From NCBI GenBank assembly GCA_022758925.1, contig JAEMQF010000269.1, positions 1 through 45,456 on the forward strand: 45,456 nucleotides of DNA, given 5' to 3'. The notes under the pieces are model-generated. The model saw only the letters and a list, made by a program, of their open reading frames with translations, was not told the DNA's origin and did not search any database. This document shows, piece by piece, positions 2,538 to 45,456 of the stretch; the first letter of the stretch is position 1; each line of letters opens with the position of its first letter. The DNA comes from Burkholderiales bacterium. Lineage in GTDB: Bacteria > Pseudomonadota > Gammaproteobacteria > Burkholderiales > Burkholderiaceae_C. Both the position numbers and the translations under genes were made by a program.

Positions 2538-2794
2538 GCGCAGATTGTGCCAGGAGGCGCCTGCGGGACTCATGAAACAGGACTTCATCGACACCTCCAA
2601 GACAAACCTGCGGGAGTCGCCGCGATCCCGACGCGGTCCTCGCGGCACCCCAAACCCGTCCGCTCGTTGCGGGCTCAATGCCGACGCGAGATTCTCATCA
2701 CGACGTAGACTCGTGTGGGTTATATCTTTGGGCACAGCCTGCGAGCTGCCATTCGCGGATTGCGTCTCATCAGAATTGATGAGAAACCACGAGT

Positions 2795-5506
2795 TCAATC
2801 GTTGGGCCGCCACCTGGCCAGCAGCGTTTCGAGGCTCGCGCTTTCGCGCTGTTTGATCTGCGCCAGCAAGGCAATGCGTGCGGCAACGGTCGCCGCGCGG
2901 GCATCGCCCTGGACGCCGGCTGCGCGGCGTTGGTCTTCGAGCAATCTCGCTCCAAGTTCAGCGTCATTGAAGCTTTCGGCGGCGCCGGGCAGCAGCCGGG
3001 CCCGACCGGACTGCCCAGCGAGTTCGGCCAGTGCCGGCCAATGGTCGCGGGTGTAGCGGTAGGCCAGTTCGCCGAACGGCGAATCGCGCGCCACCATGCC
3101 CGGAATTGCGCTGGCGACGTTCGGTGGCAACAGCTTGGTCAACGCCAACTCGAGCAACTCGGCGGCGCGCGATGCGTCGCGCCCACGCGCCAGCGCCGAG
3201 GCGAACAGCCAACGCTCTTCTTCACCACCTGCGCGTTGCAGTTGCAGCAGCAACGCATCGAAGCGGCGCCGGTCCGCGTGCATGCCCGCCGCGCGCACCA
3301 CGGCCTCACGCGTCGCGGCGGGGAGTTTCTCGGCACCGCTGGCATCGAGGTCGAACCGGCGCAGCACCCCCTGAATCGTCGGCGCATCGTCGAAGCGCGC
3401 CAGGAGCTCGATCAACGTGGCGCGCAAGGCCAACGCTTGCGCATCATCGCCCGCACGCGGCAGCCAGCCCAGGCGCGCCAGCTCCGGCGCCAGCAGCGCG
3501 CTGCCGGCCGCGCGCAACACAGCTTGGGCGCTGCTGCCCGCCAGCGCCGTGTCGAGCAGCAACAGCGCATCGCCGGCCTGCGTGGCGAGCATCGCCCGGC
3601 CCGGGCCGCGGATCCGCGGCAACTGCGCCAGCAGCGCAAAGCTGTCTTGCAGGTTCGCCCTGCCGGCCTGCGCGAGCGCGAAGCTGTCGCTGAGCAGCGT
3701 CACCTGGTCCGGCGCGCTCAAGTCGGCGAAGGCGCGCTGCAGCGCCGCGAGGTGCGTCGGTTCATAGGCGACTCGGTAGAAGCCGGCACCGCCCGCGTTC
3801 ACCAGCAAGGGTTCGGTGCGGCAACCGGTCAGGCGATGCGTCTGCTGCAGTTGCGTCTGCAGCACCGTATCGAAGCGAGCGCCGCGTGCCACGCGAACCG
3901 GAATTTGCCAGCGCTGACCGGAATCCGCCGCGCCCGGATCGAGACCGAAGCGGCGCTGCGCGATGTGCAACAGCGTCATCCCCGACTCGCATTCGACTCG
4001 CACCTGCAGCAGCGGAAATCCTTCCTGGTCGGTCCAACTCGCGGCAACGCCGGCGACATCGCGCCCGGCGGCAGCGCCAACGTGAAACCACAGATCGCCG
4101 GCGGTGGCATTCGAGAACTTGCGCTGCGCAATGTAGGCCGCCAGGCCACGCTGAAACGTTTCCGGGCCAAGCCATTCCTCGAGCATGCTCAGCACCGCGC
4201 CGCCCTTGGCGTAAGTGATGTTGTCGAAGACATCGAAGACCCGCGCCTCGTCAACCGGGCCGGAGCGGATGGCGCGCGTCGCGGCACCGGCGTCGCGCTG
4301 CATCGTGCGGTCGAGATCGGCGCGCCGCTGCAGCGGCAGGTACCAGTCCGGATTCAGATCGTCGGTGGCTTTTCCGGATATCCAGGTGGCGAAGGCCTCG
4401 TTCAGCCAGATTTCGCTCCACGAGGCGGCGGTGACGAGGTTGCCGAACCATTGGTGCGCGATCTCGTGGGCGACGATTTCGAACACCTTGCGTTGCGTGT
4501 GCGGGCTGCTGCGCTGCGGGTCGACCAACAGGTTGTTTTCGGCGTAGGAGATCAGGCCCCAGTCTTCCATCGCGCCCCAACGCGTGCTCGGCACCGCGAG
4601 TTGATCCAGGCGCGGCAGCGTGTATGGCTGGTTGAAGTAGCGCGTGTAGAACGGCAACAGGCGTTGGCTGGCATCGAGCGCGTAGCGAGCGAGTTCGCGC
4701 TTGCCGGGCACCGTGAGCACGCGCAACGGCACGCCCGCGGCCCGGCCTTCGAGCGCATCGAATTCACCCACCGCCACGCTCACCAGGTAACTCGGCATCG
4801 GCGGCGTGGGAGCGAACTGGTGCAGCACTGCGAAGTCGGTGCCGCTTCGGCCCAGCGCGCCAGCCTTGCGCGGCATGTTGGACAGCACCTCGTACAGCGC
4901 CGGTGCGCGCACCGCGATCTCGAACACGGCGCGAAACGCCGGTTCGTCGAAACCCGGGAACAGGGTGCGCGCAAAGATCGATTCGAGCTGCGTCGCCAGC
5001 ATCGGCCGCGGCTGGCCGGCGCTTCCATACTCGGCGCGATACAGACCCTCGCCGCTGCGATGCACGACGCCGCGGTATGCGATCTCGAGCCGGTACTGCC
5101 CGGGCTGGATGGTCCCGGCGTCAGCCGGCACGAGGCGCCAGGTCTGGCTCGCCGCAATCGGGCTGACGCGCATCGCGCGCGCCTGCCCGGAGCGCACAAG
5201 GCGCACCGAATCGGCTTCTAGCTCATGCGCGTGCAGCTCGATCTCGGGCGTGCTGCGCAGCACGCGCAGCGTGATGCTGGCGGTGCCCTTGAACGTGTCG
5301 AGCTGCGGGTCGAGATCAAGCTGCAAGCGGTAATGCGACGGCCGCACGTCTTTCGACAGATGACCCGGCGTGGCACGAAAATCGAAGCGCGCCTGCGCCT
5401 GCGCCGGTGCCTGCGCCAGTGCCGACCCGGCCAGAACCCACAGCGCGAGCAGCGCCAGGCGCAGAAGGAAGCTTGTGGTGTTGGTTCGCATCATGGAGGT
5501 AAGCAT
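2795..5506 (-). CDS. M1 family metallopeptidase (ERAP/aminopeptidase-like), secreted
   Basis: HEIAHQWFGNLVT zinc motif, GAMEDWGLISY exopeptidase motif, N-terminal signal-like segment LLRLALLALWVLAGSALAQA; exact start uncertain (5494 or 5506). Confidence 0.9.
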   Translation of the reverse strand: MLTSMMRTNTTSFLLRLALLALWVLAGSALAQAPAQAQARFDFRATPGHLSKDVRPSHYRLQLDLDPQLDTFKGTASITLRVLRSTPEIELHAHELEADSVRLVRSGQARAMRVSPIAASQTWRLVPADAGTIQPGQYRLEIAYRGVVHRSGEGLYRAEYGSAGQPRPMLATQLESIFARTLFPGFDEPAFRAVFEIAVRAPALYEVLSNMPRKAGALGRSGTDFAVLHQFAPTPPMPSYLVSVAVGEFDALEGRAAGVPLRVLTVPGKRELARYALDASQRLLPFYTRYFNQPYTLPRLDQLAVPSTRWGAMEDWGLISYAENNLLVDPQRSSPHTQRKVFEIVAHEIAHQWFGNLVTAASWSEIWLNEAFATWISGKATDDLNPDWYLPLQRRADLDRTMQRDAGAATRAIRSGPVDEARVFDVFDNITYAKGGAVLSMLEEWLGPETFQRGLAAYIAQRKFSNATAGDLWFHVGAAAGRDVAGVAASWTDQEGFPLLQVRVECESGMTLLHIAQRRFGLDPGAADSGQRWQIPVRVARGARFDTVLQTQLQQTHRLTGCRTEPLLVNAGGAGFYRVAYEPTHLAALQRAFADLSAPDQVTLLSDSFALAQAGRANLQDSFALLAQLPRIRGPGRAMLATQAGDALLLLDTALAGSSAQAVLRAAGSALLAPELARLGWLPRAGDDAQALALRATLIELLARFDDAPTIQGVLRRFDLDASGAEKLPAATREAVVRAAGMHADRRRFDALLLQLQRAGGEEERWLFASALARGRDASRAAELLELALTKLLPPNVASAIPGMVARDSPFGELAYRYTRDHWPALAELAGQSGRARLLPGAAESFNDAELGARLLEDQRRAAGVQGDARAATVAARIALLAQIKQRESASLETLLARWRPND

Positions 5507-28641: not shown

Positions 28642-28961
28642 TGCTGCGAGCCCGGCCAGCCGAAAAACTCGCGTGCCGTGCCACTCATCATCGACGGGTT
28701 CCAGATCGGCTCCCAGACGAGCTGCAAACGCACTTCGGTGGCTGCGGGGCAGGCGCGCTGCACGGCAAGCCGGGCCTGTTCGACGAGCATGTCCGCGACC
28801 GGGCAGGCGGGTGTGGTCATCGTCATGTCGACCTCGACCCGGCCGTCGACGACCTCGACGCGGTAGACCAGCCCGAGCTCGACGATGTTCATGCCGGCCT
28901 CGGGATCGTCGACCTCGCGCAGCGCGTCGTACACCGCGCTCGCATCGGGAGCGGGGGTCAC
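28638..28961 (-). CDS. DUF59 / MIP18-family metal-sulfur cluster assembly factor
   Basis: VTPAPDASAVYDALREVDDPEAGMNIVELGLVYRVEVVDGRVEVDMTMTTPACPVADMLVEQA; GTG start. Confidence 0.85.
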   Translation of the reverse strand: MTPAPDASAVYDALREVDDPEAGMNIVELGLVYRVEVVDGRVEVDMTMTTPACPVADMLVEQARLAVQRACPAATEVRLQLVWEPIWNPSMMSGTAREFFGWPGSQQ

Positions 28962-29026
28962 TGCGTAACCTCCGTGCTTCGCACTGCGGTGCGAGCCCCC
29001 TTCGGAACGGCCGGGCGGGGGCTCAT
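28958..29026 (-). repeat. Single copy of the ~65-bp stop-start coupling repeat (mini-ORF MSPRPAVPKGARTAVRSTEVTQ)
   Basis: Same sequence as the terminal array; its ATG overlaps the GNAT stop (ATGA) and its TGA overlaps the DUF59 GTG start (GTGA); internal GGAGG. Confidence 0.9.
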
Positions 29027-32586: not shown

Positions 32587-33249
32587 CTACAGCCTTCCTG
32601 CTTCCAGAAAACTGAAGTATCCGGTCCTGTTGAAGATGATGTGATCCAGCAGCTCGATGCCTACGATCTCGCCCGCCGCTTTGAGCTGGGCGGTGATGTT
32701 GATGTCGCTCTGCGACGGCTCGACACCACCGCTCGGATGATTGTGGGCAACGATGACGGCGGCAGCCCGGTCGGACAGCGCATCCGCGAAGACTTCGCGC
32801 GGATGAACCGGGCTGCGGTCAATCAGGCCGATCGAAACGACGCGAATGTTCAGGATCTCATTCGCGCCGTTGATGCTGCCGCATAGAAAGTGCTCCTGCT
32901 TCCGGTCGGCATAGTGCCGGATGTGCGGCAACAAGTCGGCCGGGGTTTCGATCTTCACACCCTCCGGCTTGATGCGGCGGCGGGCGAACTCAATCGCCGC
33001 GAGAACCAAAGTGGCCTTCGCGTCGCCCACGCCTTCGAACTGCGTCAGGTCTTCGGCCTTCACTTGCAGGCCCCTCTCGTCAATGAGCCGCGCCAGCTTC
33101 CCGGCAAGGGTCATGACATCCATCCCGGGCGTGCCCTTGCCAAGCAGCACCGCCAGCAGCTCCCGATCGCTCAACGCAGCCGCGCCCTTGCGCAACAGCT
33201 TCTCGCGCGGGCGGTCGGCTTCGGGCATCTGGTGGATGGTCTTGCTCAC
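32587..33249 (-). CDS. radC: RadC family JAB-domain protein
   Basis: REKLLRKGAAALSDRELLAVLLGKG, VIVAHNHPSGGVEPSQSDINITAQLKAAGEIVGIELLDHIIF; GTG start. Confidence 0.93.
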   Translation of the reverse strand: MSKTIHQMPEADRPREKLLRKGAAALSDRELLAVLLGKGTPGMDVMTLAGKLARLIDERGLQVKAEDLTQFEGVGDAKATLVLAAIEFARRRIKPEGVKIETPADLLPHIRHYADRKQEHFLCGSINGANEILNIRVVSIGLIDRSPVHPREVFADALSDRAAAVIVAHNHPSGGVEPSQSDINITAQLKAAGEIVGIELLDHIIFNRTGYFSFLEAGRL

Positions 33250-33323
33250 TTGGCCCCCTTGGCCCTGCGGCCCGTCCCCCCAATGGGGAGCGAGCACCTT
33301 CGGAACGGCCGTGCGGTGCTCAT
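33246..33323 (-). repeat. Divergent copy of the coupling repeat (mini-ORF MSTARPFRRCSLPIGGTGRRAKGAK)
   Basis: ATGAGC start, hairpin GAGCACC-GCACGGCCGTTCCGAA-GGTGCTC, second hairpin TCCCC-ATTG-GGGGA, stop TGA overlapping the radC GTG. Confidence 0.7.
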
Positions 33324-42918: not shown

Positions 42919-45219
42919 TCAACCCAGCGTCGCGTGCAATTCCTGTAGCTTGCGGCGCTGCAGCTTGCCGGTGGGCCCGCGCGGCAGCGCGGCAATCGAG
43001 TGCAGCCAACGCGGCCGTTGGTGGTGTGGCAGGTTCTGCGCGAATTCGCGCAATGCGGTGCCGGCGCCGGCGGCCGCGGTGGCGTCGCCGGTGACGTAAA
43101 AAAGCGCCACCGCGTCGACACCGTCGGCATCGGGAACGCAGACGGCCGCGGCTTCAACGATTGCCGCAGATGCCGATGCGAGTTGCTCTTCGAGTTCGAT
43201 CAGGTTGACCCAGCGCCCGCCGATCTTCACCAGCGAATCCTCGCGACCCGCGAAACGCCAGCCGCCTGGGGTGCCAGCCCCAGGGCTCAGCGCGCCGAGC
43301 CCGCCCGAAAGCGCAGGCGTGGCACCCACTTCGCCGGCGCTCGCGGGCGTGGCCTGCGCGTCGCCGGCGCTCGTGCGCAAGCCGACCTGGGGCGGCACGG
43401 CGCCGACTCTCGGCATGCGCGAGAACAAATCGGCCGGGCAGAACGCACCGTCGCGGAAGGTCTCGGCCTGCGCCAGGGGCCGGTCGAGGTAACCCAGCGC
43501 GAGCGTCGGCGCGCGGATGCGCAGCCGCGTCGGCGCGTTCACGTCGGCCTGCGCCAGCGGCTCGATCTCGACACCCGGTGTGGGCCTGAAGCCCTGCCCG
43601 TCGCCGCGGTCCAGCATCACCAGAACCTGCGTCTCGGAAGCGCCGTAGCCGTCGATGATCGTCAGTCCCGTCTGCTCGCGCCAGGCGTCGCGCAGGCTCG
43701 GCGGCAAGGCCTCGCCGGCCGACACGCACAGCCGCACGCCGGCGCTCGCAATGCGCGGGGCCAGCCCTTCACGCAACAGGTTGCGGTACAGCGTCGGCAC
43801 GCTGAACAGCACCGTCGCGCGCTGCTCCTGAACCGTCGCTGCCACGCTCTGCGCCGTCGGCCACTGCGGATCGAGCAGCACGCTGGCACCGAGCTTCAGG
43901 CCGGCGAACAGGCTGTTCGCCAGCGGGTAGGAAAAGAACAGCTTCGAGCTCGCGAAGAGGCGGTCGTCGGCGCGCACGCCGAGTGCCTCGCGAGACACCT
44001 GTTCGACGCAGCGCGCGCTGCGGTGCGCATGCACCACCGCCTTCGGTTTGCCCGAGGTTCCCGACGAATGGCACCAGAACGCCGGTGCCTCCGGGTGCAT
44101 CGGTTCGGGCCCGAGCGGAAGCGCTCGCGCCACGGCGCGCCGCCAGTCTTCGAGCAGCACGACGCGTTCGCTCCAGGGCGCGGGCGTGTCGTCGCGCGAC
44201 TCGGCGAGGATCGCGTGAAAACCGGCTTCGTCGAGGATGTAGGACCACTCGGCCTGCGCAATTCGCGGATTCACCGCGACCGCGACGCCGCCGGCCCAGA
44301 TCGTCCCCAGGAAAGCGCTGACCCAGTCGTAGCCGTCGGGCAGCCTGATCGCGACGCGTTCGCCGAGCGCGACTCCGCGCGCACGCAACACCGATGCCGC
44401 ACGCGCCACGCCTTCGTGCAGCGCGCCATAGCTGGTGCTCTGCGCGCCGCAGCGCAGCGCGGTGCGCTGCGGGTCCTGATGCGCGAGCAGCACCGCTGCG
44501 GCATTCATCAAACGAACCGGGGTCAGCGTGCGCGGTGTCTCGGGCCGCAGCAGATCGGCGCGCGACACGCCCAGCTTGCCGACGCGCCAGCGTGCGTACT
44601 CGGCGCTCAGCTGTTGCGCGTGCCCGATCTCCTCGGCAGCGAGTTCACGGTACAGCCGCTGCTCGCTCGACCCGGTCCCGGCCTGCGCCGAGCGCTCGGC
44701 AAAGAAATCGGCCGCACGCTGCTCCATCTCGATCGCGATCCGAAACAGGCTCTCCGGGTCTTGCGGCCGGTTCGGCACGGTGCCGAAGATCGCCGCCAAT
44801 TCGGCCTTGAAACCCGGCTCGGGCACCGGCACATCGACGTGGTAGCGGCGCGCCAGGGTTTCCATGTGTTCGCCCTCCATCAGCGCGAAGCGGCTGAAGA
44901 GATCGCGCAGCGCCGAGTCGTCGCTTTCAGCCGCGGCACGCTGGTAGAAAGCGCGCCCGCCGAGCTCGATTTCGAACGCCTTGCGGATCGCCTGGAGCGC
45001 GCTGGCGTGGTCGATGCGGCTCGCCTGCGGCAGCACGAGCTCGCCGCCACAACCCGGGCAGCGGCCATAGGCAAACGCAAATCCCTCGCTGACCTTGGCG
45101 CACTGTGTGCAGCGCCATTGCCGGCTCGCACTGGCGCAGCAGACGCTGCCTTCTTCGGCGTCGGCGGCGAGCGGGCGTTGGCAGTTCGGGCACAGCTTCA
45201 TGTTGACCTGCGTGCTCAT
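42919..45219 (-). CDS. Zn-ribbon + rubrerythrin-like diiron domain fused to an acyl-CoA (benzoate-CoA-like) ligase
   Basis: CPNC/CTQC/CPGC ribbons; EIELGGRAFYQ, EGEHMETL, EMEQRAADF, EEIGHAQQL; then AMP-binding WCHSSGTSGKPKAVVHAH, GYGASETQVL, GREDSLVKIGGRWVN, PTGKLQRR. Confidence 0.88.
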   Translation of the reverse strand: MSTQVNMKLCPNCQRPLAADAEEGSVCCASASRQWRCTQCAKVSEGFAFAYGRCPGCGGELVLPQASRIDHASALQAIRKAFEIELGGRAFYQRAAAESDDSALRDLFSRFALMEGEHMETLARRYHVDVPVPEPGFKAELAAIFGTVPNRPQDPESLFRIAIEMEQRAADFFAERSAQAGTGSSEQRLYRELAAEEIGHAQQLSAEYARWRVGKLGVSRADLLRPETPRTLTPVRLMNAAAVLLAHQDPQRTALRCGAQSTSYGALHEGVARAASVLRARGVALGERVAIRLPDGYDWVSAFLGTIWAGGVAVAVNPRIAQAEWSYILDEAGFHAILAESRDDTPAPWSERVVLLEDWRRAVARALPLGPEPMHPEAPAFWCHSSGTSGKPKAVVHAHRSARCVEQVSREALGVRADDRLFASSKLFFSYPLANSLFAGLKLGASVLLDPQWPTAQSVAATVQEQRATVLFSVPTLYRNLLREGLAPRIASAGVRLCVSAGEALPPSLRDAWREQTGLTIIDGYGASETQVLVMLDRGDGQGFRPTPGVEIEPLAQADVNAPTRLRIRAPTLALGYLDRPLAQAETFRDGAFCPADLFSRMPRVGAVPPQVGLRTSAGDAQATPASAGEVGATPALSGGLGALSPGAGTPGGWRFAGREDSLVKIGGRWVNLIELEEQLASASAAIVEAAAVCVPDADGVDAVALFYVTGDATAAAGAGTALREFAQNLPHHQRPRWLHSIAALPRGPTGKLQRRKLQELHATLG

Positions 45220-45456
45220 TGCGTAACCTCCGTGCTTCGCACTGCGGTGCGAGCCCCCTTCGGAACGGCCGGGCGGGGGCTCATTGGGTAACCTCCGTGC
45301 TTCGCACTGCGGTGCGAGCCCCCTTCGGAACGGCCGGGCGGGGGCTCATTGCGTAACCTCCGTGCTTCGCACTGCGGTGCGAGCCCCCTTCGGAACGGCC
45401 GGGCGGGGGCTCATTGGGTAACCTCCGTGCTTCGCACTGCGGTGCGAGCCCCCTTC
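45216..45456 (-). repeat. Tandem array of the 65-bp stop-start coupling repeat (3 full units plus partial, runs off window)
   Basis: ATG (minus strand) at 45219, 45284, 45349, 45414, spaced exactly 65 bp; each unit encodes MSPRPAVPKGARTAVRSTEVTQ* with TGA overlapping the next ATG. Confidence 0.95.

Follow-up and report, generated by a model that had tools for sequence, protein, structure and literature searches.

A short repeat forms a tandem array at one end of the window (the whole 45,456-nt stretch of Burkholderiales bacterium DNA that was analysed), and related copies occur at the start codons of many other genes. The reading that we prefer, with a probability of about 0.7, is that this repeat is a short interspersed element of Burkholderiales which copies itself into the -4 RTGA overlaps of co-directional genes and keeps the translational coupling of these genes. 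The copies in the window and the gene fed by the array are as follows:

45216..45284 (-), unit adjoining the gene, from ATGA to ATGA, 22-codon mini-ORF, 65-nt period
45281..45349 (-), second full unit, mini-ORF MSPRPAVPKGARTAVRSTEVTQ
45346..45414 (-), third full unit
45411..45456 (-), fourth unit, truncated at the contig end
42919..45219 (-), gene starting at the final ATGA of the array, fusion of rubrerythrin and AMP-binding, 766 aa
28958..29026 (-), exact single copy, 65 nt, same 22-codon ORF as in the array
33246..33323 (-), divergent copy, 74 nt (3n+2), 25-codon mini-ORF

The array occupies the minus strand from 45456 to 45216; it has three complete units of 65 nt plus a fourth of which 46 nt are present, all head to tail and differing pairwise by 0-1 nt. 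Each full unit is an ATG followed by 21 codons (MSPRPAVPKGARTAVRSTEVTQ; in letters ATG AGC CCC ... GTT ACS CAA TGA), its TGA stop sits inside the next ATGA, and the next ATG lies 7 nt past the end of GGAGG. The final ATGA of the array is the start codon (45219) of a 766-aa ORF that carries the Pfam domains Rubrerythrin and AMP-binding. The preliminary description had claimed at least three full units, the 22-codon ORF with its GGAGG and ATGA link, and the passage of the last unit into the start of the fusion gene, and all of these could be read again in the sequence. In the window the 37-nt core is found 4 times, as compared to 0 in 100 shuffles. The contig end falls within the array and cuts the fourth unit, so the array may be longer than seen. 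TTACGCA and TTACCCA alternate between the units, i.e. there is a 130-nt super-period, which suggests that the array may have grown by duplication of a dimer. We note that the gene at 42919-45219 (-) is a single ORF in which the Rubrerythrin domain is joined to an AMP-binding domain of the acyl-CoA ligase type.

The copies at 28958-29026 and 33246-33323 are additional to those of the preliminary description. The exact copy (28958-29026, minus strand) separates the TGA stop of a GNAT acetyltransferase gene (ATGA) from a FeS_assembly_P (PF01883) gene that starts with GTG (GTGA). The mini-ORF of the divergent copy (33246-33323, minus strand) stops at the GTGA start of a RadC-family gene, and a TGA stop lies just upstream of its ATG. 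This copy belongs to the same superfamily as the array repeat and differs from it in the second hairpin.

The 28-nt core has 50 matches in this genome at ≤3 mismatches, as compared to 0 for the reversed-pattern control. The copies are single or in arrays with periods of 63, 64, 65 and 66 nt, with 1-5+ units per site that are near-identical in arrays, which is the picture of a short dispersed repeat (about 40-100 bp, many loci, some of them tandem). On several other contigs of the 422-contig assembly array units coincide with the contig ends, and this association of arrays with many contig ends should be kept in mind in annotation. A covariance model made from 29 diverse copies gave 71 matches in this genome. 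The search of the host genome and of other Burkholderiales, which had been proposed in the preliminary description, was extended with this model to good-quality genomes sampled from the same GTDB family, and 209 out of 270 were matched, the per-genome copy numbers of this survey being lower bounds; six genomes given a fuller search (E ≤ 1e-6) contain 7-24 copies each. In the rest of the order the matches are few and weak (9 out of 200 sampled genomes besides same-family members). A phylum-wide draw of 200 genomes gave matches only in G000 and G138, both of the same family, and the repeat was not found in the remaining 198 genomes of this draw from its own phylum. Among the named GTDB hosts that carry the exact core are Variovorax, Acidovorax, Polaromonas, Methylibium, Aquabacterium and Burkholderia, and a single Variovorax record is the only case of plasmid carriage. 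The repeat types are distinguished by their length and by the loop of the first hairpin; a second loop subtype is scarce in this genome (5 exact matches).

The position of the repeat was analysed on 177 distinct copies. The base before the repeat's own TGA is A in 129 out of 140 testable copies (92%), as compared to 132 out of 392 other TGA stops of long ORFs. An SD-like motif lies ahead of the first RTGA in 77 of the 140 copies but only at 52 of the 392 other stops, as one would expect were the mini-ORF now served by the SD that originally belonged to the downstream gene. Good spacing of the internal SD is seen in 123 out of 177 copies (strict 4-mer match). In a test of GC content by codon position, the sense frame from the 3' RTG was the best of six at 132 out of 156 sites, i.e. 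the repeat is oriented in one way with respect to the downstream gene, and the frame that leads into the 5' TGA from upstream was the best at 128 out of 159 sites. In other words, the repeat sits between co-directional genes and runs in the same direction as both, and the start and the stop of its ORF overlap the flanking genes by 4 nt. At about 15-20% of the sites the first TGA is not the stop of a long ORF. Copies equally frequent on both strands and unrelated to start codons had been named at the outset as evidence against a coupling role; the copies are tied to start codons and are sense to the genes.

It is conspicuous that the lengths of the copies follow the reading frame. Both ends are ATGA or GTGA in 139 copies (44 to 92 nt), of which 126 are 3n+2, 12 are 3n and one is 3n+1; owing to the common descent of the copies these are not 126 independent events. 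If each length class is counted once, 10 out of 15 are 3n+2 and one is 3n+1, an excess that chance would still rarely produce (binomial p 0.0085), and the 3n+2 lengths seen are 44, 59, 62, 65, 71, 74, 77, 86, 89 and 92 nt. Most 3n copies continue in frame into the downstream gene or the next unit. In this genome 20 out of 21 fully assembled sites are an unbroken ATGA/GTGA chain from the first ATGA to the downstream ORF, the sole exception (L018) being decayed. Paired units at 63-nt core spacing form one 43-codon ORF, again ending on RTGA, and arrays of 63- to 66-nt units still bring a frame to the next gene. The preliminary description had seen in the 65-nt length the feature that keeps every stop in register with the next start: the frame logic is retained and the stop/start link is preserved across the lengths, but the unit is not always 65 nt. 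The difference between 62 and 65 nt can be explained by structure alone. The 66-nt copies L042, L146, L164, L216 and L244, as well as L287, are 3n and have an upstream ATG in frame with the gene. Copies of the 3n kind deserve a warning in annotation, as gene callers are likely to produce from them a false N-terminal extension of ~20-22 aa; L287, which is from another family, seems to be such a case, with a hisC-like ORF.

Two hairpins are predicted in the repeat. The first, GAGC(N)CC...GG(N)GCTC, begins at the stop codon, and the second, ACC-GCA-GUGC-GAA-GCAC-GGA-GGU, pairs part of the SD region. The folding energy of single sequences is unexceptional (z between -1.8 and +1.2). Covariation was counted on ungapped sets of fixed length, with shuffles that ignore the kinship of the copies; it gave 37 doubly changed pair cells in the 62-nt class (shuffled mean 10.3) and 15 in the 65-nt class (shuffled mean 1.7), and a further covariation count agrees with this result. 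The entropy at the three codon positions is 0.58/0.59/0.60, i.e. they are equally variable. Taken together, the covariation and the equal variability indicate that selection appears to act on the RNA structure and the frame; the peptide of the mini-ORF is probably not its target. In Rfam the array has no match at the gathering score or at E ≤ 10, and the larger variants have none at the repeat. The Betaproteobacteria toxic small RNA RF02278, described as a separate small RNA with its own terminator (PMC4603805), was dropped as a candidate as it has no Rfam match to the repeat, and a CsrA-type GGA site was rejected because it is lost in the GAAGG variants.

Two junctions, nuoJ-nuoK and rsmH-ftsL (the names rsmH and ftsL are from sequence and synteny), were compared with those of relatives. 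The nuoJ-nuoK junction is an RTGA overlap in 25 out of 29 relatives, and in 22 of these the end of nuoJ contains an SD-like motif; in this genome the junction holds one unit between two ATGAs. The rsmH-ftsL junction is an RTGA overlap in most of the 29 relatives, and in this genome the insert comprises five units and an ORF of 101 nt (326+101 nt), so that the chain from rsmH reads 22, 22, 22, 44 and 34 codons, then ftsL. The closest relative has at this place a 140-nt insert of another type, also 3n+2 and with ATGA at both ends, whose ORF carries the superfamily loop motif. At both junctions there is a TGA/RTGA coupling site at either end of the insert, and the empty sites are native -4 overlaps with SD-like motifs. 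Most junctions in the relatives are without the repeat. The near-identical copies at unrelated loci in one genome, together with the empty sites in relatives, support the spread of the repeat. No transposase or other mobility gene was found for the repeat, and the idea that orphan halves flank a transposase was rejected, as a search with the left half turned up no loci beyond those that the core had given.

The following course of events is proposed. Insertion would leave an RTGA at both ends of the element, and the upstream gene would now terminate on the first ATGA. The SD already present near the 3' end of the upstream gene would serve the ATG of a mini-ORF of roughly 20-22 codons, which would cross the two hairpins and the built-in GGAGG/GAAGG and stop at the second RTGA; the RTG of the latter would start the downstream gene, with the element's own GGAGG as its SD. 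By translating, the ribosome would open the hairpin that joins ACC to GGU in the SD region, and it would then reinitiate, i.e. the ribosome of the mini-ORF would be handed to the next start as by a natural bicistronic-design leader, and tandem units would be extra termination-reinitiation steps. In this manner ribosomes can probably traverse the insert and reach the next gene. From the sequences we infer the translation of the mini-ORF, the reinitiation, a still-active mobility and the copying route. A wider version of this proposal seems doubtful to us, namely that the repeat is a Burkholderiales-wide mobile RNA-structured element in which the strategy of the mycobacterial interspersed repetitive units (MIRUs) evolved independently, that it actively targets -4 overlaps, possibly by RNA-based copying, and that the number of tandem units sets the stoichiometry of operons through the count of termination-reinitiation steps.

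The repeat could also be a mobile or decayed structured repeat with a portable SD, whose GGAGG starts the gene de novo and whose mini-ORF is a by-product. A strong internal SD could indeed begin the downstream gene without a mini-ORF, and both its good spacing (123 out of 177 copies, strict 4-mer match) and the equally variable codon positions, which give no sign of peptide selection, agree with such an origin. Nevertheless we find it unlikely, as it leaves unexplained the near absence of 3n+1 lengths (1 out of 139), the A before TGA in 92% of the copies and the in-phase reading of 63/64/66-nt units. A domesticated regulator, in which post-stop hairpins and tandem copy number set the ratio of downstream to upstream protein like a rheostat, is distinctly improbable: the host genes (nuoK, ftsL, dsbB-, ilvD-, crcB- and radC-like, those without Pfam hits being named by reading of the sequence) share no functional theme and the repeat is missing from most junctions in relatives, even though the hairpins are conserved and covarying, the arrays have 1-5+ near-identical units, and, in a synthetic E. 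coli operon, how efficiently ribosomes reinitiate depends on post-stop structures (PMC7518266).

We give very little credence to the reading that the mini-ORFs encode a family of true microproteins of 21-22 aa (consensus MSPRPAVPKGARTAVRSTEVTQ). The peptide is recognisable across types by its ARTAVRST core, but there is no third-position excess in the codon-position entropy (0.58/0.59/0.60) and the sequence variation tracks base pairing. REP/RAYT, ERIC and other MITE-like repeats are palindromic, multicopy and non-autonomous and are not confined to stop/start junctions; our repeat shares the first three properties, but it is restricted to stop/start junctions and no RAYT link was found for it. 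That it is a REP-type palindrome moved by a RAYT (Y1_Tnp) transposase is extremely improbable. One or two Y1_Tnp genes are present in 6 out of 7 genomes tested, which together with the palindromes and the many copies would suit this origin, but there is no convincing copy near any of the seven RAYT loci, G121 has 24 copies yet no Y1_Tnp match, and REPs are unlinked to start codons. In other words, in the genomes tested no convincing copies flank Y1_Tnp genes, nor is such a gene present wherever the repeat is abundant.

The self-copying coupling element that we prefer has counterparts among known systems. In the bicistronic design (BCD) of synthetic biology a short leader ORF contains a second SD, the stop of the leader overlaps the next start, and translation of the leader opens the structure at the second start. 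In the repeat, too, the leader ORF includes an SD, which lies 5-10 nt ahead of the next start, and the stop overlaps this start; unlike BCD, the repeat is natural, dispersed and inside operons, and the first SD is from the upstream gene. MIRUs, which are often tandem, share with the repeat that they are short dispersed repeats at start codons with an ORF in the repeat and coupling by a -4 overlap. MIRUs are apparently mobile and inserted at start codons (Supply et al. 1997, as described in PMC12548453), and a 2025 review, which also mentions BCD leader cistrons, states that the MIRU ORF couples to the gene with -4 spacing and likely minimal effect on gene expression (PMC12548453). The Burkholderiales repeat differs in that it is from another phylum and in its documented built-in GGAGG and two covarying hairpins. 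It has the architectural features of a MIRU, and we liken it to MIRUs by this described architecture, without filing it as a MIRU by descent. The earlier statement that no named element matches the array was thus not quite right, as MIRUs have the same architecture (PMC12548453), whereas the Burkholderiales family itself is apparently unreported.

Ribosome termination structures, which are described as enriched where reinitiation must be prevented, likewise have a stable hairpin beginning at the stop codon (PMC7518266), but in the repeat this hairpin is accompanied by a start codon and a downstream SD. The TAACTGA repeats of marine Beggiatoaceae, for which a translational role was proposed, are also tandem just upstream of starts with no gene theme; they differ in being heptamers with little SD character, stops in all frames and no mini-ORF or hairpins (PMC4679880). 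Exact-sequence and keyword searches of the open-access literature gave no earlier description of the Burkholderiales repeat. It appears that coupling repeats as a kind are known from MIRUs and that the structured, SD-bearing Burkholderiales family is unreported. This is a second lineage with a repeat built around a translational-coupling reading frame, here at the scale of a bacterial family. Moreover, empty, single-unit and multi-unit junctions (e.g. nuoJ-nuoK and rsmH-ftsL) are natural contrasts. With these it can be tested directly how efficiently ribosomes reinitiate at each -4 overlap, whether the hairpins after the stop act as insulators or as couplers, and in what way essential operons can be invaded by a mobile element and stay intact.

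Other examples of sequence variability were seen among the copies. In L051, L065, L185, L188-L190, L193 and L199 the first loop is enlarged by ~30 nt of additional, hairpin-like sequence, and these copies mostly remain 3n+2 (89, 92 and 95 nt; L189 has 91). A match to the SAM_alpha riboswitch that barely reaches the gathering score (36.2 bits) lies on L238 at 2748-2825 (-), apart from the repeat. Kindred post-stop palindromes without the SD module (TTGAGGAAACGC...GTTTCCTCAACCCCC...) occur at L229, L230, L237 and L239 and are possibly terminator-like members of a larger family.
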